Of a stretch of DNA of 64,000 bases, positions 20,813 through 57,306 are shown in pieces (the first letter of the stretch is position 1; each line of letters opens with the position of its first letter). Both the position numbers and the translations under genes were made by a program. The notes below the pieces were generated by a model that was not told the origin of the DNA, ran no database searches, and saw only the letters and a program-made list of their open reading frames with translations. This DNA comes from Hymenobacter convexus (lineage in GTDB: Bacteria; Bacteroidota; Bacteroidia; Cytophagales; Hymenobacteraceae), in NCBI RefSeq assembly GCF_030580955.1, contig NZ_JAUQON010000003.1, forward strand, positions 372,001 through 436,000. The letters run 5' to 3'.

Positions 20813-20834
20813 CACGTCATGTCGAGCTAGAAAG

Positions 20835-20945
20835 AACGTCATGTCGAGCGTAGCCGAGACATCTCGCGTGTGGTAGTAATCCAATCGTGCGAAAAGTCTT
20901 GATTACTGCTGCACGCGAGATGTCTCGGCTACGCTCGACATGACA
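20835..20945. repeat. Palindromic element family B, copy 1
   Basis: Two inverted arms of about 34 bases (20835-20870 and 20912-20945) begin with AACGTCATGTCGAGCGTAGC and contain GAGACATCTCGCGTG. The spacer has GTGGTAGTAATCCAATCG, which recurs in copies 2 and 3. A truncated arm start (CACGTCATGTCGAGCTAG) lies just before it at 20814-20831. The element sits between susC and susD and could form a large hairpin that reduces read-through. Confidence 0.85.
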
Positions 20946-22431: not shown

Positions 22432-22435
22432 CCGG

Positions 22436-22547
22436 ACCCCACCCCCGGCCCCTCCCCGGTGGGGAGGGGTGCGTTCAGCAATTACAAGAACTCGCGTTTG
22501 GCACCCTTCGGCACCCTTCCCCACCGGGGAAGGGCCGGGAGTGGGGT
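22436..22547. repeat. Palindromic element family D, long form
   Basis: Two GC-rich inverted arms, ACCCCACCCCCGGCCCCTCC onward (22436-22471) and its near complement (about 22512-22547), each with an internal short hairpin (CCTCCCCGGTGGGGAGG; CTTCCCCACCGGGGAAG). It starts a few bases after the susD stop. Other members are at 24658, 30179, 32874 and, degenerate, 59706. Confidence 0.75.
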
Positions 22548-22585
22548 ACGCCCGTCCGCGCCAGAACAAAACCAACTCATAAGCA

Positions 22586-24648: not shown

Positions 24649-24657
24649 TTCTGGCGG

Positions 24658-24768
24658 GCGCCTCACCCCCGGCCCCTCCCCCTTGGGAGAGGGGAGCCAG
24701 ACGGTTTTCGTATGAAGCTATTCCGGTGCCCCCTCTCCCTTAGGAGAGGGAGTCAGGGGATGAGGCGC
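24658..24768. repeat. Palindromic element family D, long form
   Basis: Inverted arms CCTCACCCCCGGCCCCTCCC and AGAGGGAGTCAGGGGATGAGG (with outer GCG/CGC), each with its own short internal hairpin around CCCTCTCC/GGAGAGGG, separated by a spacer of about 30 bases. It lies in the gap before the first GH2 gene. Confidence 0.75.
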
Positions 24769-24808: not shown

Positions 24809-27289
24809 ATGCCCCTCCCCCGAACCAGCCAGCCCCCTCAGTTGCTGCTGATTCTGCTGTTCCTGCTCACTGCCCTTTCCTCGCGCGCCCAGCAGCGTAG
24901 ACGCCTCACGGCCGGCTGGGAATTTGTGCGGCAGGACCTGGGCGGCGTCTGGGAGGCCGTGCGCCCCGTGGTGGCCGGCAACCCCGAAAGCGTGCCACTG
25001 TGGCAAGCTGTCACCCTCCCTCACTGCTTCAACGCCCGCGACGCCGTGGACCCGGACGTGAATTACTACCAGGGCCCCGGCTGGTACCGCATCCAACTCG
25101 CGGTGCAAAACCCCTACCCCGGCGGCCACACCCGCCTGCATTTCGAGGGCGCCGGCCAGAAAACGGAAGTCTACCTCAACACCACCAAAGTGGGCAGCCA
25201 CGTGGGCGGCTACGACGAATGGACCGTGGACGTCACGCAAGCGGTGGCCGATTTCCAACAAATAGAAGCGTTTCAGAAGCAGTTCAAGGGCAAAATTCCG
25301 CTCAGCATTCGCTGTGACAATTCGCGCGATTTGGAGATGATACCGTCCGACTTGTCGGACTTTAATATTTACGGCGGCCTCTACCGCTACGTAAATCTGG
25401 AATACCTGCCGGCCGTGGCGCTGGAGCACCTTTCGGCTAAAGCAGAGGTGGACCCAGCTGGCAAAAACGGCTTGCTCACGCTCAAAGCCACCTTTCTCGA
25501 AAACACCCCGGCCGCAGCCGATACAAAAGTTACAGTGCGCCTGCTCGACCCACTGGGCAAGGCCGTGGGCAAATATGAAGGCACGCTAAGTGTGAAAGCC
25601 GGCGAATTGGACCTGCACCAGTTCAAGGTAAAAAGCCCGCGGCTGTGGTCGCCCGACCGGCCGCAGCTCTATACGGTGGAAGTGACGGTGGGCACCGGGC
25701 CGCAGGCCTTCCGGCAGACCGAGAAGGTGGGCTTTCGCCACAGCGAGTTTGTGGAGCACGGGCCCTACCGGCTGAACGGCCAGCGCCTGCTGCTGCGCGG
25801 CACCCACCGGCACGAAGACCACGCCGGCGTGGCCGCCGCCATGACCGAGCCGCAGATTCGGCAGGAAATGCGGCTGATGAAGCAGATGGGCGTCAACTTC
25901 ATCCGCCTCGGCCACTACCAACAGTCGCGCATCGTGCTGAATCTGTGCGACTCGCTGGGCATTTTGGTGTGGGAGGAAATTCCGTGGTGCCGGGGTGGGC
26001 TGGGCGGCCCGGTGTACCAGGCGCAGGCCCGCCGCATGCTGACCAACATGGTGCAGCAGCATTACAACCACCCGGCCGTCATCATCTGGGGGCTGGGCAA
26101 TGAGAACGACTGGCCCGGCGATTTTCCCGAGTTCGACAAGGAGAGGATTCGCGCCTTCATGAAAAGCCTCAATGACTTAGCCCACCAGCTCGACGCCTCG
26201 CGCTACACGGCCATCCGGCGCTGCGACTTCTGCAAGGACATTCCCGATGTGTACTCGCCCTCCATCTGGGCGGGCTGGTACCGAGGCATCTACACCGATT
26301 ACAAGGCCGCGACAGAAGAAGAATTCAAAGGCGTGAAGCGCTTTCTGCACGTGGAATGGGGCGGCGACAGCCATGCCGGCCGCCACGCCGAAAACCCCGA
26401 CAACGCGCTGGCCAAAATCACGGCCGGCCGGGGCGCCGACGAGCGGGCCGGCGACGCCTCCCTGTTCGGCGGCAGCGCCCGCGTCTCGAAGGACGGCGAC
26501 TGGAGCGAAACCTACCTCTGCAACCTCGTCGACTGGCACCTCAAGGAGCAGGAAACCATGCCCTGGCTCAGTGGCGCGGCCTACTGGCCGTTCAAGGATT
26601 TCTCCACGCCCGTGCGCCCCGACAACCCCATTCCCTACATGAACCAGAAGGGCGTGGTGGAGCGCGATTTCACCAAGAAAGAGGCTTACTACGTGTTCCA
26701 ATCTTACTGGACTACCGCGCCCATGGCCCACCTCTACGGCCACTCCTGGCCCGTGCGCTGGGGCGAGGCGGGCGAGCTGAAAATGGTGAAAGTGTACTCC
26801 AACTGCGCGCAGGCCGAGCTGTTCGTGAACGGCAAAAGCTACGGCACGCGCCAGCGCAACAGCCAGGATTTCCCCGCCGCCGGCCTGCACTGGAACGTGC
26901 CCTTTGCCGCCGGCCCCAACGAGGTGCGCGTGCTAGCCCGCCAAGGCCGCCAGACGGTGGAAGACCGCATCAGCTTCCAATACGAAACCCGCAAATGGGG
27001 CAAGCCCACCAGGCTGACCCTGACGAAAACCGCCGAAGCAAACGGCCTGACCACTGTCGAAGTGAAGCTCTTCGACGCGCAAGGCGTGCAGTGCCTCGAC
27101 GCGGCCAACTGGGTGGAGTTTTCATTGGCCGGCGCGGGCCGGCTGCTCGATGACCTGGGCACCAGCAGCGGCGCGCGCAAGGTGCAGGCCTACAACGGCC
27201 GCGCCATCATCCGGCTCGAAGCCCAAGCCGGGCAAAGCGTGGTGGCCGTGCAGTCACCTGGGTTAGAAGCCGTATTGTTGCCGCTATGA
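24809..27289 (+). CDS. Glycoside hydrolase family 2 enzyme (beta-galactosidase type)
   Basis: An 826-residue secreted enzyme with signal peptide (LLLILLFLLTALSSRAQ). The sugar-binding, immunoglobulin-like and TIM-barrel domains of GH2 follow in order. The acid/base glutamate is in VIIWGLGNENDW and the likely nucleophile in FLHVEWGGDS. Conserved LRGTHRHEDHAGVAAAM matches the GH2 signature region. A C-terminal DUF4982-like and Ig-like part follows. Exact sugar (beta-galactoside, beta-glucuronide or other) cannot be read from sequence alone. Its TGA overlaps the ATG of the next GH2 gene (ATGA). Confidence 0.88.
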   Translation: MPLPRTSQPPQLLLILLFLLTALSSRAQQRRRLTAGWEFVRQDLGGVWEAVRPVVAGNPESVPLWQAVTLPHCFNARDAVDPDVNYYQGPGWYRIQLAVQNPYPGGHTRLHFEGAGQKTEVYLNTTKVGSHVGGYDEWTVDVTQAVADFQQIEAFQKQFKGKIPLSIRCDNSRDLEMIPSDLSDFNIYGGLYRYVNLEYLPAVALEHLSAKAEVDPAGKNGLLTLKATFLENTPAAADTKVTVRLLDPLGKAVGKYEGTLSVKAGELDLHQFKVKSPRLWSPDRPQLYTVEVTVGTGPQAFRQTEKVGFRHSEFVEHGPYRLNGQRLLLRGTHRHEDHAGVAAAMTEPQIRQEMRLMKQMGVNFIRLGHYQQSRIVLNLCDSLGILVWEEIPWCRGGLGGPVYQAQARRMLTNMVQQHYNHPAVIIWGLGNENDWPGDFPEFDKERIRAFMKSLNDLAHQLDASRYTAIRRCDFCKDIPDVYSPSIWAGWYRGIYTDYKAATEEEFKGVKRFLHVEWGGDSHAGRHAENPDNALAKITAGRGADERAGDASLFGGSARVSKDGDWSETYLCNLVDWHLKEQETMPWLSGAAYWPFKDFSTPVRPDNPIPYMNQKGVVERDFTKKEAYYVFQSYWTTAPMAHLYGHSWPVRWGEAGELKMVKVYSNCAQAELFVNGKSYGTRQRNSQDFPAAGLHWNVPFAAGPNEVRVLARQGRQTVEDRISFQYETRKWGKPTRLTLTKTAEANGLTTVEVKLFDAQGVQCLDAANWVEFSLAGAGRLLDDLGTSSGARKVQAYNGRAIIRLEAQAGQSVVAVQSPGLEAVLLPL

Positions 27290-30099
27290 TGAAGATTATA
27301 GCTCTACCATCCTACACGTGTAGAGACGCGACACTTCGCGTCTCGTTGTCTGCGCATTTAGCGAATCGTACTTTGCAGCGTTCAACGCCGAGACACGAAG
27401 TGTCGCGTGTCTACATGGTTCTGGCGTTCGTGCTGTTGGCCCTGCCCGCCACCGCCCAGCGCCTCACGCAGTCCATCAATTCCAACTGGCTTTTCCGCAA
27501 AGACGAAGCCGGCCTGAGTGTCGCCCAAGCCTCAGCCGTTGTAGCTGGCTGGGAGAAAATTTCTCTGCCCCACACCTGGAACGCGGCCGACGTGCTCGAC
27601 GACGAGCCGGGCTATTACCGCGGCGTCGGCTGGTATAAAAAGACGTTGGCCGTGCCCGCCGACTGGCAGCAGCGGCGCGTTTTCCTGCAGTTTGAGGGCG
27701 CCAACCAGGAGGCCGAGGTGTATGTGAACGGACAACTGGCCGGGCGGCACGCGGGTGGCTATACCGCCTTCCGCTTCCCCATCAGCCAGTGGCTGAAATT
27801 CAGCGGCAGTGAGCCGGCCCCAGCCGAAATCCTGGTGAAGCTCACCAACCGCTACAACCCTGATATTCCGCCGCTCACGGCCGATTTCACCTTCTACGGC
27901 GGCATCTACCGCGACGTAGTTCTGGTGGCGGCCGAGTCGGTGCATTTCGACCTCGACAACCACGCCTCGGCGGGTGTTTTCGTGAGTACCCCGGCCGTGT
28001 CGGCTGAGGCGGCGGACGTGCTGGTGGCCGGGGCTTTAAATAACGAATTCGCTACCGCGCGCAAGGTGACGGTGCTGAGCCAGTTGCTTGACCGCGACGG
28101 CCGCGCCGTGGCCCGGCAGCAAACCAGTCTCACGCTGCAGCCCGGCGCGAAAACGTCGTTTCGACAGCTGCTGCCGAAGCTGGCGCGGCCCCACCTCTGG
28201 ACGCCCGACGACCCGTATCAGTACCGCGTGGTGACGTCGGTGCTTGACGGCAAGAAAGGCGCGCCACTCGATGAAGTCAGCAACCCGGTGGGGGTGCGCT
28301 GGTTTCGGTTCGATGCCAATGAAGGCTTCTTTTTAAATGGCAAACCGCTCAAGCTCATCGGCACCAACCGCCACCAGGACTTTCCCGGCCTGGGCAACGC
28401 GCTGCCCGACGCGCTGGCCGAACGCGACCTGTTGCTGCTCAAGCAGATGGGGAGCAACTTCCTACGCGTGTCGCACTATCCGCAGGACCCCGCCGTGCTG
28501 GCCGCCTGCGACCGGCTGGGCCTGCTGGCGTCGGTCGAAATCCCCGTCGTGAATGCAATCACCGACTCGCCGGCTTTCTTCCAAAACTGCCTCACGATGC
28601 AGATGGAGATGATTCGCCAGGGCTTCAACCACCCCAGCGTCGTCATCTGGGCTTACATGAACGAGGTGCTGCTACGCCTGCCCGCCGGCCTGAAGCGCGA
28701 CAACGACGCCGGCCGCGCCTACCTGCGGCGCGTGACTGCGCTGGCCCGGCAGCTCGACAGCCTCAGCCGCCGCGAGGACCCGGCCCGCGCCACCATGCTG
28801 GTGTGCCACGGCGATTTCGGGCTCTACCAGCAGGCCGGCCTGCTCAGCGTGCCGCAGGTGTTGGGCTGGAACCTGTATTCGGGCTGGTACTCGGGCGATT
28901 TTTCGGGCTTCCCCGCCTTTCTCGACCGTCATCACAAGGAATTGCCCACGCAGCCGCTGCTCGTGACCGAGTACGGCGCCGACTCCGACGAGCGGCTCCA
29001 CGCCTTCCAGCCCCGGCGCTTCGACAAAACCACCGAGTACGCCAACCGCTACCACGAATTTTACTTGCGCGCCATCCTGGAGCGTCCCTTCGTAGCCGGC
29101 AGCACGGTCTGGAACCTGGCCGAATTCAACTCCGAAACCCGGCAGGAAGCCGTGCCCCACATCAACAACAAAAGCCTGCTGACGGGCGACCGGCGGCCCA
29201 AGGACGCCTACCTGTTTTACCAGGCCCACCTGCTCAAAACGCCCTTCCTGCGCATCGGCTCCCGCGCTTGGACCTTGCGCGCCGGCCTCGCTGCCGGGCC
29301 CGATTCGCTGTTCTGCCGCCAGCCGGTGGACGTGTACACCAACCAGCCCGCCGTGCGTTTGCTGCTCAACGGCCGCGACCTGGGAACCCGGCCCGCGCAG
29401 TTCGGTGTGGCACACTTCTCGGTGCCCTTCGGCAATGGCCTGAACCAGCTGCGCGCCCAGGCCGCTGGCCAGCCCATTGAGGACTTGGCCGACATCGAAT
29501 TTCAATTAATTCCCACCAATCTGGCATCCGCCCAGCTGCCGTTCACGGAATTGAATGTGAGCCTGGGCGATGAGCGGATTTTCACCGATGCGAAGCTGCA
29601 CCAGGTCTGGCTGCCCGAGCAGGAATACCGGCCCGGCGGCTGGGGCTACGTGGGCGGCCACCCCTACAAAATGGCTGGCGACCGCCTACCCTACGGCTCC
29701 GACCGCAACATCCTCGGCACCGACTACGACGCTGTGTATGAAACCCAGCGCCTCGGCCTGAGCCAGTTTCGCCTCGACGTGCCCGCCGGCAACTACGAAG
29801 TCACCCTGCACTTCGCCGAGCTGGAAGCCGCCCCGGCCGGCGAGCAGCTGGCCTACAACCTGGCCGGCAGCAGCGCCGCCACCGCCACTGCCGCACCCCA
29901 GAATCGGGCATTTGCGGTGCTGGTGAATGGGCTAGCCGTGCTGCCGAATCCGAGCACCGCCACGACGCTGATGCCACTGCAGGCAGTGAGCTACAAGGTG
30001 CCGGTTTCGGTGCGCTCCGGGCAGGGCATCATTGTCGATTTCAAGGCCCAGACGGGCGAAGCCTTTCTCAATGGCATTCAGGTAAAAAAGCTATTTTAA
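27286..30099 (+). CDS. GH2 enzyme with malectin domain; repeat element in signal region
   Basis: The ATG at 27286 overlaps the upstream stop as ATGA, the classic coupled start. The N-terminus then runs MMKIIALPSYT, next about 32 residues translated from an A-family palindromic element, then the hydrophobic core LAFVLLALPATAQ. An internal ATG at 27415 is an alternative start but leaves a signal peptide with no positive n-region. The GH2 body has NRHQDFPGLGNALPD, the acid/base motif VVIWAYMNE and the nucleophile VTEYGAD. The C-terminal 190 residues are a malectin-like carbohydrate-binding domain (ELNVSLGDERIFTDAK onward). Total 937 residues. Confidence 0.87.
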   Translation: MMKIIALPSYTCRDATLRVSLSAHLANRTLQRSTPRHEVSRVYMVLAFVLLALPATAQRLTQSINSNWLFRKDEAGLSVAQASAVVAGWEKISLPHTWNAADVLDDEPGYYRGVGWYKKTLAVPADWQQRRVFLQFEGANQEAEVYVNGQLAGRHAGGYTAFRFPISQWLKFSGSEPAPAEILVKLTNRYNPDIPPLTADFTFYGGIYRDVVLVAAESVHFDLDNHASAGVFVSTPAVSAEAADVLVAGALNNEFATARKVTVLSQLLDRDGRAVARQQTSLTLQPGAKTSFRQLLPKLARPHLWTPDDPYQYRVVTSVLDGKKGAPLDEVSNPVGVRWFRFDANEGFFLNGKPLKLIGTNRHQDFPGLGNALPDALAERDLLLLKQMGSNFLRVSHYPQDPAVLAACDRLGLLASVEIPVVNAITDSPAFFQNCLTMQMEMIRQGFNHPSVVIWAYMNEVLLRLPAGLKRDNDAGRAYLRRVTALARQLDSLSRREDPARATMLVCHGDFGLYQQAGLLSVPQVLGWNLYSGWYSGDFSGFPAFLDRHHKELPTQPLLVTEYGADSDERLHAFQPRRFDKTTEYANRYHEFYLRAILERPFVAGSTVWNLAEFNSETRQEAVPHINNKSLLTGDRRPKDAYLFYQAHLLKTPFLRIGSRAWTLRAGLAAGPDSLFCRQPVDVYTNQPAVRLLLNGRDLGTRPAQFGVAHFSVPFGNGLNQLRAQAAGQPIEDLADIEFQLIPTNLASAQLPFTELNVSLGDERIFTDAKLHQVWLPEQEYRPGGWGYVGGHPYKMAGDRLPYGSDRNILGTDYDAVYETQRLGLSQFRLDVPAGNYEVTLHFAELEAAPAGEQLAYNLAGSSAATATAAPQNRAFAVLVNGLAVLPNPSTATTLMPLQAVSYKVPVSVRSGQGIIVDFKAQTGEAFLNGIQVKKLF
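27319..27415. repeat. Palindromic element family A, copy 1, inside coding frame
   Basis: Left arm TGTAGAGACGCGACACTTCG onward (27319-27344) and right arm ending in CGTGTCTACA (27390-27415), each itself a hairpin (GAGACGCGA-CACT-TCGCGTCTC). Translated in the GH2 frame it gives CRDATLRVS on the left and PRHEVSRVY on the right. Inner flanks contain GTTCAACG as in other copies. Confidence 0.88.
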
Positions 30100-30178
30100 C
30101 GTGAATAGGCAAGCCGCCTGAAACCAAATTAACATTCTTATTATGAATGAATTAATAGCGCATTTCTTGGTTTCGGCT

Positions 30179-30220
30179 GGCTCCCCTCTCCCTGAGGAGA
30201 GGGGTCGGGGGTGAGACGCC
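30179..30220. repeat. Palindromic element family D, short form
   Basis: A single hairpin, GGCTCCCCTCTCCCTGAGGA then GAGGGGTCGGGGGTGAGACG, upstream of the second alginate_lyase-superfamily gene. Nearly identical to the copy at 32874. Confidence 0.75.
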
Positions 30221-32786: not shown

Positions 32787-32859
32787 GTAACGTGGACTTT
32801 TAGTCCGCGAATTATCTGAACCAAGACTAACAATACGCGGACTAAAAGTCCGCGCTACA
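32787..32859. repeat. Palindromic element family C, copy 1
   Basis: Arms GTAACGTGGACTTTTAGTCC and GGACTAAAAGTCCGCGCTACA around a spacer of about 25 bases. Each arm holds the small palindrome GGACTTTTAGTCC. It lies downstream of the GH88 gene and immediately upstream of a D element. Confidence 0.85.
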
Positions 32860-32873
32860 GCACGCGCCGCCGT

Positions 32874-32915
32874 GGCTCCCCTCTCCCTGAGGAGAGGGGC
32901 CAGGGGGTGAGGCGC
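32874..32915. repeat. Palindromic element family D, short form
   Basis: Single hairpin GGCTCCCCTCTCCCTGAGGA then GAGGGGCCAGGGGGTGAGGC, ending in GGCGCC. It lies 15 bases after a C element, so two unrelated element families are stacked in the GH88-GH105 gap. Confidence 0.75.
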
Positions 32916-35715: not shown

Positions 35716-35839
35716 TGTAGAGACGCGACACTTCGCGTCTCGTCGTTGAACGGTAATGATAGAACGATGACGCCTGAACGATGCAAGCGGCACGGTGCTG
35801 GTCGTTCAACGACGAGAGGCGAAGTGTCGCGTCTCTACA
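35716..35839. repeat. Palindromic element family A, copy 2
   Basis: Arms TGTAGAGACGCGACACTTCG onward (35716-35742) and CGAGAGGCGAAGTGTCGCGT onward (35813-35839), with inner GTTGAACG / CGTTCAAC. It separates the esterase from the convergent oxidoreductase gene. The right end supplies the TAG stop (35837-35835) of that oxidoreductase. Confidence 0.88.
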
Positions 35840-37286: not shown

Positions 37287-37350
37287 GCGGGGCAGAGTTG
37301 AAAAAGTGGTAGAGCAATTAGGCGGATTAAAAGAACGTCGGTATTTAGGC

Positions 37351-37455
37351 CGTCATGCCGAGCGCAGCAAAGCATCTCGCTTGTGGTAGTAATTCAATCG
37401 CAAGGAAAAGGATTGGCGGTGGCAAGCGAGATGCTTCGCTGCGCTCGGCATGACG
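37351..37455. repeat. Palindromic element family B, copy 2
   Basis: Arms CGTCATGCCGAGCGCAGCAA onward (37351-37382) and AAGCGAGATGCTTCGCTGCG onward (37424-37455). The spacer has GTGGTAGTAATTCAATCG, shared with copies 1 and 3. Located upstream of the oxidoreductase start codon. Confidence 0.87.
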
Positions 37456-37658
37456 GCCTACCCTCCCGCACCCTGCCCACGCTTTTCAACTACGCCAGCC
37501 GGCGCGGGTCGTTGGCCGAGAGCGGGGGCAGTCAGACGTCAACCCGCTCCCGGTTCCACCAACGGCCGGCGGAGCTACCGGGTTGGCCGAAGTTGTCGCG
37601 GTAGCGAATGGCATGGCTGAAACGCGGCGGCTGCGCAGAAAAGGGGATTATCAGCGGC

Positions 37659-42580: not shown

Positions 42581-43663
42581 TCACTGCACCGCCACGTCCC
42601 ATACCTTGGCCATGCGCGCTTTGCCGGCCGGGCCGTCTACATCCAGCACCACGATGTATTTGCCGGCGTCTTTGTAGCGGTGCACCGGGCTTTGTTCGGT
42701 GGAAGTCGTGCCGTCGCCGAAATCCCAGTGCCAGCGCTTGATGGGGCCCCGGCTTTCGTCCAGAAACGTGACCTGGCGGCGGGCCATGTCCGTAACTTGA
42801 AATGACCATTGGGCCGCCAGTTTCGGCAGGTACTGGGCGGCCAGCGGCAGCAGCGTGAAGACGGTGCCCAGGCTAGAATTGCCGTACATCTTGTGGTTTT
42901 TCGACAGATTCCAGAAGCCTTTTTTGCTTTCGTCGGCCACGTCGTCGTAGTCAATCACGGCCCAGGTGAGGCCGATTTTCTTGCCCTCCGTCAGCACCGA
43001 TTCCACGGCGCGGGCTGGTCCTTCGGCCCCGGCGTAGTCGAAGGGCGTAATCCAGAACTCGGCCGTGAGCTTGCCGGATTGGCCGGGCCGGAAGTCGTAG
43101 CTGTAGGCAATGTTGGAATAGGGCAGCTTTTTAATCCAGGGCTGCGCGCCCCAGGCCAGCGCCCAGTCTTTGCCCTCGGCGGGCATGAAAATGTGGTAGT
43201 TCTGCGCGTGCACGCCGTGGAAGGCGAAGTAGCGCTCCATCAGCGGCAGGTCCGGGTTGGGGTGCTGCTCGGCGATGAGCGGGCCGCCGGAAAGGTCGCC
43301 GTCCACCACGATTTCGAAGGTGTCGTTGTGCAGACCCGGCAGGCTGAAATCCCAGTAGTTGTCGTAGGCTTCGTAGAGAAAATAGAGGCGGTTGAGCCCC
43401 GCCACCCAGGCCACGCGCACCTGCACGGCAAGGTTAGTGGAGTCGGCCTTGGGGTAGTGGCCGGAGTCGTCGCGCAGCTGGTCGGTGCCCACGATGTATT
43501 CCTTCGGAAACGTAGCCCAGTCGTCGGCCTTGCCGTCGATGCGCGGTATCATATTGGCCGGAAACTGGTAGACTTTGAAGCCCCGGTCTTCCTGGGCGTG
43601 CGCGGCGGGAATGAGGATGCAAAGGGAAAGGACGAGGGCGATGCTTCGACTATAGCACGTCAT
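42581..43663 (-). CDS. Secreted CBM9-like and PKD domain protein; start inside a B element
   Basis: The ATG at 43663 gives a normal signal peptide (MTCYSRSIALVLSLCILIPA). A further in-frame ATG at 43720 lies in the spacer of the same B element and would add 19 residues. The first 230 residues resemble a CBM9-like domain (IPRIDGKADDWATFP; FEIVVDGDLSGG). The last 85 residues are a PKD domain (RWHWDFGDGTTSTEQSPVHR, YKDAGKYIVVLDV). No catalytic domain is seen. A surface carbohydrate-binding accessory protein is likely; about 360 residues. Confidence 0.75.
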   Translation of the reverse strand: MTCYSRSIALVLSLCILIPAAHAQEDRGFKVYQFPANMIPRIDGKADDWATFPKEYIVGTDQLRDDSGHYPKADSTNLAVQVRVAWVAGLNRLYFLYEAYDNYWDFSLPGLHNDTFEIVVDGDLSGGPLIAEQHPNPDLPLMERYFAFHGVHAQNYHIFMPAEGKDWALAWGAQPWIKKLPYSNIAYSYDFRPGQSGKLTAEFWITPFDYAGAEGPARAVESVLTEGKKIGLTWAVIDYDDVADESKKGFWNLSKNHKMYGNSSLGTVFTLLPLAAQYLPKLAAQWSFQVTDMARRQVTFLDESRGPIKRWHWDFGDGTTSTEQSPVHRYKDAGKYIVVLDVDGPAGKARMAKVWDVAVQ

Positions 43664-43767
43664 GCTGAGCGCAGCCGAAGCATCTCGCGTGGGGTAGTAA
43701 TTCAATCGTTGTTTCATCATTAATTAGTGCTGCACGCGAGATGCTTCGGCTGCGCTCAGCATGACGT
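43657..43767. repeat. Palindromic element family B, copy 3
   Basis: Arms ACGTCATGCTGAGCGCAGCC onward (43657-43690) and CACGCGAGATGCTTCGGCTG onward (43733-43767). The spacer shares GGTAGTAATTCAATCG with copies 1 and 2. The CAT at 43661-43663 is read on the minus strand as the likely start codon of the CBM9/PKD gene. Confidence 0.88.
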
Positions 43768-43789
43768 TCTTTTTACGTTCAGAATAACC

Positions 43790-45160: not shown

Positions 45161-45270
45161 TGTAGAGACGCGACACTTCGCGTCTCCTCGTTGCTGATGT
45201 TGTTATTACCGCACGGCGGTGTGCGGCCCTGGCCGTTCAACGAGGAGACGCGAAGTGTCGCGTCTCTACA
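45161..45270. repeat. Palindromic element family A, copy 3
   Basis: Arms TGTAGAGACGCGACACTTCG onward (45161-45187) and CGAGGAGACGCGAAGTGTCG onward (45241-45270), with inner CCGTTCAACGAGG as in other A copies. Its right end supplies the TAG stop (45268-45266) of the GH28 gene. Confidence 0.9.
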
Positions 45271-50148: not shown

Positions 50149-51276
50149 ATGAAAATTCAACTTGCTTCTCTCTTGCTGCTTAGCGGCCTTTGCCAACCGG
50201 CTTGGGCGCAAAAAGCGCTGCCCAAAGATGTTCCGGCCGCCACCATGCAGAAGGTGTACGAGGAGGTGAAAACGCCTTATAAGTACGGTCTGGTGCTCGT
50301 CACCGACGACAACAAGAAGAAGATGGACTGCCCCAGCGTGTTCCGCAAAAACGGGCAGTGGTGGATGACCTACATCATCTTCGACGGGCGCGGCTACGAA
50401 ACCTGGCTGGCCCAGAGCAAGGACCTGCTACACTGGGAAACGAAGGGCAAAATCTTGGCTTTTACCGATAGTACCGACTGGGACACCAACCAGAAAGCCG
50501 GCTATGTGGCCCTGCAAGACCCCAAGTGGGGCGGCAGCTACGAGTGGCAGCCCTACCAGGGCAAGTACTGGCTATCGTACTTCGGCGGCAACTCACGGGG
50601 GTATGAAAAGGGCGTGCTTTCCATCAGCCTGGCCTCGACGGACAAGGACCCCACCACCCTGCCCACCTGGCAGCGCCTGGCCAAGCCCGTGCTGCGCCCC
50701 GACGACAAAGACGTGCGCTGGTGGGAGAACCACACCATCTACAAAAGCTCGGTGGTGTGGGACAAGAGCAAGCTCACCGGCCACCCCTTCGTGATGTACT
50801 ACAACGCCAACGGCGACAGCCTCAACGCCAAGCGCGGGGCCGAGCGCATCGGCATGGCCGTGTCGGACGACATGACGCACTGGACACGGTACCTGCGCAA
50901 CCCCGTGCTGAACCACCACACCGGCATCACCGGCGACGCCTACCTGCAGAAAATGGACAACAGCCTGTGGGTGATGTTCTATTTCGGCGCCTTTTACCCC
51001 GGCGTGAAGGGCGCCGTGAACCGCTTCGCCTGCTCCTACGACCTCACCCACTGGACCGACTGGACGGGCGCGAATTTGATTGAGCCATCCGAGCCCTACG
51101 ACGAATTATTCGCCCACAAGTCCTTCGTGCTGAAATACAAAGGTGTGGTGTACCACTACTACTGCGCCGTGAACAAGCCCGACCAGCGCGGCATCGCCGT
51201 GGCCACTTCCAAGGATTTGGGCAAGAGTACGGTGGCGTTTATCGCGCCGCCGGTGAAGAAACCCAAAGCAAAGTAG
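50149..51276 (+). CDS. Secreted five-bladed beta-propeller glycosidase-like protein
   Basis: The ATG at 50149, 4 bases after the GH78 stop, starts a signal peptide (LASLLLLSGLCQPAWAQ). About 375 residues with repeated propeller strands: MDCPSVFRKNGQWWMTYIIF, WLAQSKDLLHWETKG, GMAVSDDMTHWTRYLRNPVL and CSYDLTHWTDWTG. This is the pattern of the GH43/GH117/GH130 superfamily, but the exact family is not clear. Candidate acidic catalytic residues are in KMDCPS and in EPYDELF. Its TAG stop is part of a C-family element. Confidence 0.75.
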   Translation: MKIQLASLLLLSGLCQPAWAQKALPKDVPAATMQKVYEEVKTPYKYGLVLVTDDNKKKMDCPSVFRKNGQWWMTYIIFDGRGYETWLAQSKDLLHWETKGKILAFTDSTDWDTNQKAGYVALQDPKWGGSYEWQPYQGKYWLSYFGGNSRGYEKGVLSISLASTDKDPTTLPTWQRLAKPVLRPDDKDVRWWENHTIYKSSVVWDKSKLTGHPFVMYYNANGDSLNAKRGAERIGMAVSDDMTHWTRYLRNPVLNHHTGITGDAYLQKMDNSLWVMFYFGAFYPGVKGAVNRFACSYDLTHWTDWTGANLIEPSEPYDELFAHKSFVLKYKGVVYHYYCAVNKPDQRGIAVATSKDLGKSTVAFIAPPVKKPKAK

Positions 51277-51345
51277 CGCGGACTTTTACTCCGCGAGTAA
51301 ACGATAACAACCTCGAACATTCGCGGACTAAAAGTCCGCGCTACA
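51273..51345. repeat. Palindromic element family C, copy 2
   Basis: Arms GTAGCGCGGACTTTTACTCC and GGACTAAAAGTCCGCGCTACA, spacer about 30 bases. The first TAG (51274-51276) is the stop codon of the propeller gene, and the GH2 start lies 9 bases after the element. Confidence 0.88.

Positions 51346-53766: not shown

Positions 53767-57306
<3,540 letters not shown>

Follow-up and report, generated by a model that had tools for sequence, protein, structure and literature searches.

A palindromic repeat between the start codon and the hydrophobic signal core of a Hymenobacter GH2 gene is probably translated

Where does translation of this GH2 gene begin, and does the palindrome lying between its first possible start codon and the hydrophobic core of its signal region form part of the protein? 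The gene lies in a 64,000-nt stretch of the Hymenobacter convexus genome, the window in what follows. It had been taken for a GH2 enzyme from its letters, an assignment with which Pfam agrees, and its best named protein matches are in Hymenobacter. The ATG at 27286 overlaps the TGA of the preceding GH2 gene (ORF 24809-27289), and the frame is open from this point. Read from there, the N-terminus runs MMKIIALPSYT, an inverted repeat and then MVLAFVLLALPATAQ. The repeat is formed by 27319-27345 pairing with 27389-27415 (27-nt arms, 93% complementary, 43 nt apart), which bears out the original prediction that an in-frame element, hereafter element A, separates MMKIIALPSY from the hydrophobic core by about 32 residues. 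The last A of the palindrome is also the A of the ATG at 27415. The features of the region are:

27286..30099 (+): ORF of the GH2 enzyme with element A in its signal region; 937 aa, GH2 by Pfam
27286..27318 (+): putative ancestral start and original n-region MMKIIALPSYT; ATG overlapping the upstream TGA, common to orthologues G050, G062 and G026
27319..27415 (+): palindromic element A, 97 nt, TGTAG...CTACA, in frame; an inverted repeat and one of the 42 two-arm copies located
27319..27345 (+): left arm, holding the GTAG-tagged half palindrome GTAGAGACGCGACACTTCGCGTCTC; from the inverted repeat and the lined-up copies
27389..27415 (+): right arm, in which the exit frame used gives HEVSRVY; from the inverted repeat, the exit frame being common to the gene at 53776 and the sialate-esterase-like genes
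27400..27402 (+): in-frame GTG within the right arm, a rival start that would give MSRVYMVLAFVLLALPATAQ; from the list of starts and orthologue comparison
27415..27417 (+): in-frame ATG at the end of the element, a rival start; CTT in orthologue G039 (orthologue comparison)

The RNA of 27286-27435 is predicted to form a stable hairpin (-63.3 kcal/mol, z -4.8; 0 of 200 shuffles as low). A known RNA family was dropped as the identity of the region, no Rfam family reaching its curated threshold in 27200-27500, where only mir-4798 appeared, its 20.6 bits falling short of the gathering score of 75. We consider, with a probability of about 0.74, that a palindrome resembling the Rickettsia palindromic elements (RPEs) and built like a GTAG-REP dimer was inserted downstream of an ancestral start and is translated as an Arg-rich n-region.

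Element A belongs to a repeat family. With up to three mismatches allowed, the window contains a 20-nt core 8 times (largest count in 100 shuffles, 0), and the genome a 22-nt core 79 times at up to two mismatches (reversed control, 0), beyond what chance would give; 42 two-arm copies were located in the source genome. An exact half-element pattern is present in 92 of 120 Hymenobacter genomes, with 0 control matches in each. Lining up 39 two-arm copies gave 83-126 nt between the TGTA and TACA ends and a by-eye consensus of GAACGA-TGTAGAGACGCGACACTTCGCGTCTCGTCGTTGAACG, a variable middle and then the mirror image, with base frequencies computed for the ends only. According to these frequencies the half-element reads GTAG-AGACGCGA-CACT-TCGCGTCT, GTAG standing at the outer end of a short palindrome. 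The best core match is forward at the left and reverse at the right in nearly all 39 copies, the exception being L068, with a single orientation.

Halves made of GTAG plus a short palindrome and set in opposite orientation are the two features of a GTAG-REP dimer as given in the available part of PMC3733652, and element A has both. Unlike GTAG-REPs, however, element A has no linked RAYT in the source genome: there are two PF01797 matches, one over and one under the cut-off, and neither is flanked by element A, one having a different repeat, GCGGACT..AGTCCGC, on its flanks. On this ground a linked RAYT was rejected as the means of mobilisation. Not every REP family has a linked RAYT (PMC3733652, in its available part). 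Element A is probably mobile.

How often is element A read as protein? Spanning ORFs were sought for 43 copies, namely the 39 lined up plus 4 more; L233, whose left arm was not located, is among these 43 and not among the 42 measured, and L061 and L234, with one arm found, are outside both sets. For 38 of the 42 measured, no supported ORF was counted as spanning the copy. Of the four supported in-frame cases in the source genome, three lie between a start and a signal core. L046, RES-domain-like by a name read from its sequence, was rejected as an in-frame case, since its ORF spans the element and the upstream part scores as non-coding. Counted by eye, nine copy ends are followed, at a distance of 7-27 nt, by the ATG of an outward ORF. 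Two of the copies in the window without a spanning ORF are:

35716..35839 (+): element A copy, no spanning ORF found; from core search, inverted repeats and ORF check
45161..45270 (+): element A copy, no spanning ORF found; from core search, alignment and ORF check

The second precedes by 27 nt the ATG of an ORF on the minus strand whose N-terminus, MKHALILASLLFATAAHAQ, looks like a signal. The predominance of unspanned copies, together with the nine placed just before an ATG, would suit a reading in which the repeat at the GH2 gene stays untranslated as part of the spacer and ATG 27415 is the start. We regard this as very unlikely, given the orthologues.

The GH2 orthologue set comprised 30 loci including the source genome's own; L036, whose match starts at residue 93, was left out of the arm detection, the frame test and the tree. 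Two orthologues, G039 (88% identical) and G115 (87%), carry element A at the same position without loss of frame. In G039 the distance from ATG to core is 9 nt less and CTT stands in place of ATG 27415, yet the frame is open back to ATGATG, with the N-terminus MMKIIAK. In G119, MMKITARP is followed in frame by a different palindromic repeat. G050 (MKKARLII..), G062 (MRKNSK..) and G026 (MIPHLS..), in which arm detection found no inverted repeat, start at the same stop-start overlap. Because these repeat-free orthologues start at the same ATGA overlap, the 27286 start is most simply ancestral and the repeat a later arrival. Neither of the two outcomes that would have told against the original prediction was seen: G039 keeps the frame without an ATG at the 27415 position, and traces of MMKII persist upstream in G039 and G119.

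A start at ATG 27415 was thus rejected as a general account, G039 being without that ATG. For the source gene itself it is disfavoured: the peptide from 27415, MVLAFVLL, would lack a charged n-region, and the orthologues without the inverted repeat start at the overlap. The spacer arrangement does occur at this gene, in G040, G015 and G016, where element A or a remnant lies in the spacer and a separate ATG follows. In a tree of 29 mature GH2 proteins (stop signs stripped from the translations; the matches used listed without internal stops), the three orthologues with the A insert in frame form a single clade (support 100/100), and those with it in the spacer form another. Three rows labelled as in-frame element B, a distinct palindrome (CCCCCTCTCC..GGAGAGGGGG) that other species carry at the same sites, need three changes.

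It might be argued that the gene has decayed at its 5' end and that the upstream frame is open by chance. Elsewhere in the genus at least one 5' end does appear damaged, that of the G118 beta-galactosidase, whose frame is lost and whose open frame is short (646 aa). Set against this, the mature GH2 proteins of G039 and G115 are 87-88% identical to the source protein from end to end and free of stops, all three GH2 genes retain the frame, and the arrangement recurs in other genes; we hold decay to be extremely improbable.

This recurrence begins within the window, where a further gene, absent from the original prediction, shares both arrangement and exit frame:

53776..57252 (+): second GH2 (beta-galactosidase) ORF, with 13 residues, the element and 15 residues; Pfam
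53815..53914 (+): second in-frame element A copy, 100 nt; from core search, inverted repeat and alignment

A third gene of the source genome, sialate-esterase-like (SASA domain), reads MKKHIEP, element A and then IVLALFLSIPAHA, its ATG again overlapping the upstream stop; the three signal-peptide genes share one exit frame. For the sialate-esterase-like and beta-galactosidase genes, 30 loci each were fetched and 24 close orthologues of each examined, L131-L136 and L161-L166 (about 40-43% identical) lying outside these 24 + 24. By eye, element A is at the beta-galactosidase site in 6 of 24 (G000, G092, G039, G008, G050 and G067) and at the sialate-esterase-like site in 8 of 24 (G000, G065, G043, G008, G067, G092, G039 and G112), and all 14 copies are in frame. 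Empty sites are seen in the G105 beta-galactosidase (MKKLALAFLFLSYL..) and the G057 sialate-esterase-like gene (MMEKRRLIGRLLLLL..).

Element B was detected in 13 of the 24 beta-galactosidases (about 16 by eye), many of which read ..FRRGGRGVRR or the like from its arm ahead of the core. In one frame the arms of both elements would give an Arg-rich segment leading into the hydrophobic core, which for element B takes the form ..RRGGRGVRR-xVWAxLLL in many beta-galactosidases. The sialate-esterase-like genes of G045 and G002 use a different and less basic frame of element B, which argues against a strict exit-frame rule. A secreted VWA-like protein of the source genome, with its domain name read from its sequence, also has in-frame element B as its signal region, MRYRSDV..PPSLRRGGRGVRRHVWTLLLLLLSFAAHAQ (L265; G000:C4:21616-21705, minus strand).

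Retention of the frame was assessed over 77 orthologous loci (29 GH2, 24 sialate-esterase-like and 24 beta-galactosidase), in 36 of which an arm could be recognised no more than 75 nt from the core. In 33 of these 36 the coding frame has an ATG on the far side of the palindrome that is open to the core, against 3 and 1 for the other two frames; the loci are related by descent, and the 33 are not independent events. The GH2 genes of G040, G016 and G019 account for the three misses; in each of them a separate ATG follows the matched arm, and G019 counts as arm-bearing through a one-mismatch match. By eye, the detector overlooked arms in the sialate-esterase-like gene of G065, the GH2 genes of G119 and G100, and the beta-galactosidases of G002, G015, G101 and G118. 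In all but G118 the coding frame contains an open ATG upstream (as does another frame in G119 and G100); G118 has none, and counting it would add one miss.

These data also bear on whether the element itself supplies the start. A GTG at 27400, replaced by TTG or ATG in sister copies, would then begin a compact signal peptide, and the upstream frame would be a leftover. The resulting peptide resembles a normal signal peptide, and by eye 15 of the 17 element A copies read in frame have an in-frame GTG, TTG or ATG 12-18 nt upstream of the exit. A start in the arm, however, leaves the open upstream ATG in the coding frame unexplained, and GTG 27400 lies inside the stable predicted hairpin. Moreover, no such codon is found in the arms of two sialate-esterase-like genes, those of G000, the source genome, and G065. 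In G065 a TTG and an ATG do occur farther upstream within the element. The G000 gene would start either at the ATGs upstream of the element or at a GTG in the hydrophobic core, as its arm holds no GTG, TTG or ATG. We judge it rather unlikely that the arm provides the GH2 start. On grounds of ancestry and frame retention, initiation at ATG 27286 or 27289 is favoured over the others.

Loops between the 25-nt arms are multiples of 3 in all 17 in-frame element A copies, which were chosen for in-frame read-through, with the spacer copies of G040, G015 and G016 left out, so that the loop lengths restate the frame result; a Fisher value of about 1e-6 on loop length rests on this choice of in-frame copies and on related rows. 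The 38 unspanned copies of the source genome fall 17, 12 and 9 into length classes 0, 1 and 2 modulo 3, and its three signal-peptide copies are all in class 1 (p = 0.04). Mismatches between the arms of one copy average 1.12 in the sialate-esterase-like, 1.50 in the beta-galactosidase and 3.00 in the GH2 genes (8, 6 and 3 copies), as against 3.68, 2.87 and 8.50 between arms of different species; the G067 beta-galactosidase copy has 7 between its arms. Arm-to-arm or copy-to-copy conversion, re-insertion or selection for the hairpin would each give such a match within copies.

Element A is also found in frame outside signal peptides. In a kinase-phosphatase-like gene of the source genome (L043; AAA_33 and Metallophos domains) it lies between DVHGC and GDLVDRG, and the exit frame, ETRSVASL, is polar, unlike that of the signal-peptide genes. 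All of the best-scoring 30 of 110 matching genomes (L077-L106), a choice biased towards insert-bearing genes, have extra in-frame sequence in this loop, which by eye is element A in 9, element B in 18 and other sequence in 3. The G079 match contains a TGA somewhere, and in G092, G065 and G083 the two parts are in different frames at the element. In about 50 further listed genomes, by eye, the match breaks off near residue 247 and continues from near 288; as the interruption is mostly a gap of a few nt, these sites are taken to be empty.

How might a repeat come to serve as part of a signal peptide? We propose that a repeat of the GTAG-palindrome type was inserted between the GH2 start codon and the hydrophobic core in an ancestor of the source species and two relatives. 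An insertion at this 5' end would fall into coding sequence, because the start overlaps the upstream stop and there is no spacer. Translated from ATG 27286 or 27289, the insert would form a positively charged n-region of about 43 residues, ending ..HEVSRVY and leading directly into MVLAFVLLALPATA. Sec signal peptides can accept long, arginine-bearing n-regions. The insert may therefore have been tolerated, since n-regions of this kind are acceptable and the exit frame used suits a signal peptide. The protein would still be exported, and the insert would be neutral or mildly adaptive. A broader and distinctly more tentative idea is that palindromes of more than one family act as recurrent n-region donors in Hymenobacter: secreted enzymes in tight operons may repeatedly replace or extend their n-regions in this way, with selection picking the exit frame and the arms staying complementary.

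Translated palindromes have precedents. RPEs were reportedly the subject of Ogata et al. 2000. According to the available parts of PMC2229807 and PMC10969869, they are palindromes of about 105-150 bp (105-146 bp in PMC2229807) with a long stem-loop, which occur in spacers and also as in-frame fusions to 19 reading frames, and one RPE-bearing product was shown to be translated and active (PMC2229807). Element A is likewise a dispersed palindrome with a predicted long stem-loop, lying in spacers and in frame in unrelated genes; at 97 nt in the GH2 gene it is, as a family, somewhat shorter than those RPEs. In-frame insertions with empty orthologues were found for the GH2, sialate-esterase-like, beta-galactosidase and kinase-phosphatase-like genes. 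The proposal of an RPE-like insertion into a signal peptide is thus supported by orthologues, frame and recurrence, the likeness being one of behaviour in a different phylum. Unlike RPEs, the Hymenobacter repeats are in frame mainly in the segment from start codon to signal core, with different repeats at a site across species.

The available part of PMC3733652 (Di Nocera et al. 2013) describes GTAG and CGTC REPs inside genes, many of them for DNA synthesis and repair, and cautions that many NH2-terminal copies may be extragenic, with translation starting downstream. The Hymenobacter orthologue comparison, in contrast, argues that the copies studied here are coding. Wolbachia protein-coding palindromes (Ogata et al. 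2005) and Methanocaldococcus coding palindromes (Suyama et al. 2005), both cited in PMC2229807, are by their titles coding palindromic repeats outside Rickettsia, as the Hymenobacter ones would be. The palindromic amphipathic repeat coding sequence of PMC2996958 is, in the part available, also a translated palindrome, as element A appears to be, but an intragenic tandem repeat. A keyword literature search for Hymenobacter palindromic repeats returned only titles judged off the topic, and one combining Bacteroidetes, REP, signal peptide and insertion returned nothing.

Protein-coding palindromes are best known from Rickettsia, going by the available parts of PMC2229807 and PMC10969869, and Hymenobacter is a free-living genus. 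With 120 searchable genomes holding empty, filled and differently filled orthologues, the path from selfish DNA to peptide becomes testable, as do selection on the exit frame and the role of signal peptides as permissive landing sites. In addition, automatic start calls could trim or misplace the signal peptides of element-bearing enzymes.

The window holds other repeats. The last 13 residues of the 53776-57252 ORF (57211-57252) are encoded by another palindromic repeat, with arms at 57211-57245 and 57272-57306, so that this enzyme seems to owe both its ends to repeats. Yet another family of palindromes, ..GCATCTCGC..GCGAGATGC.. or near variants of it, occurs at 20828-20944, 37346-37460, 43654-43770 and 57211-57306. 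Palindromes of the form GGACT..AGTCC at 32787-32859 and 51273-51345 apparently belong to the family flanking the RAYT-like gene at G000:C12:81441 (L009). C-rich repeats of the CCCCTCTCC type or similar, at 22433-22550, 24657-24758, 30174-30220 and 32873-32906, resemble the element B of the orthologues' signal regions, and a short array of a 12-nt unit, GGCCTTATCGGT, lies at 1170-1260.
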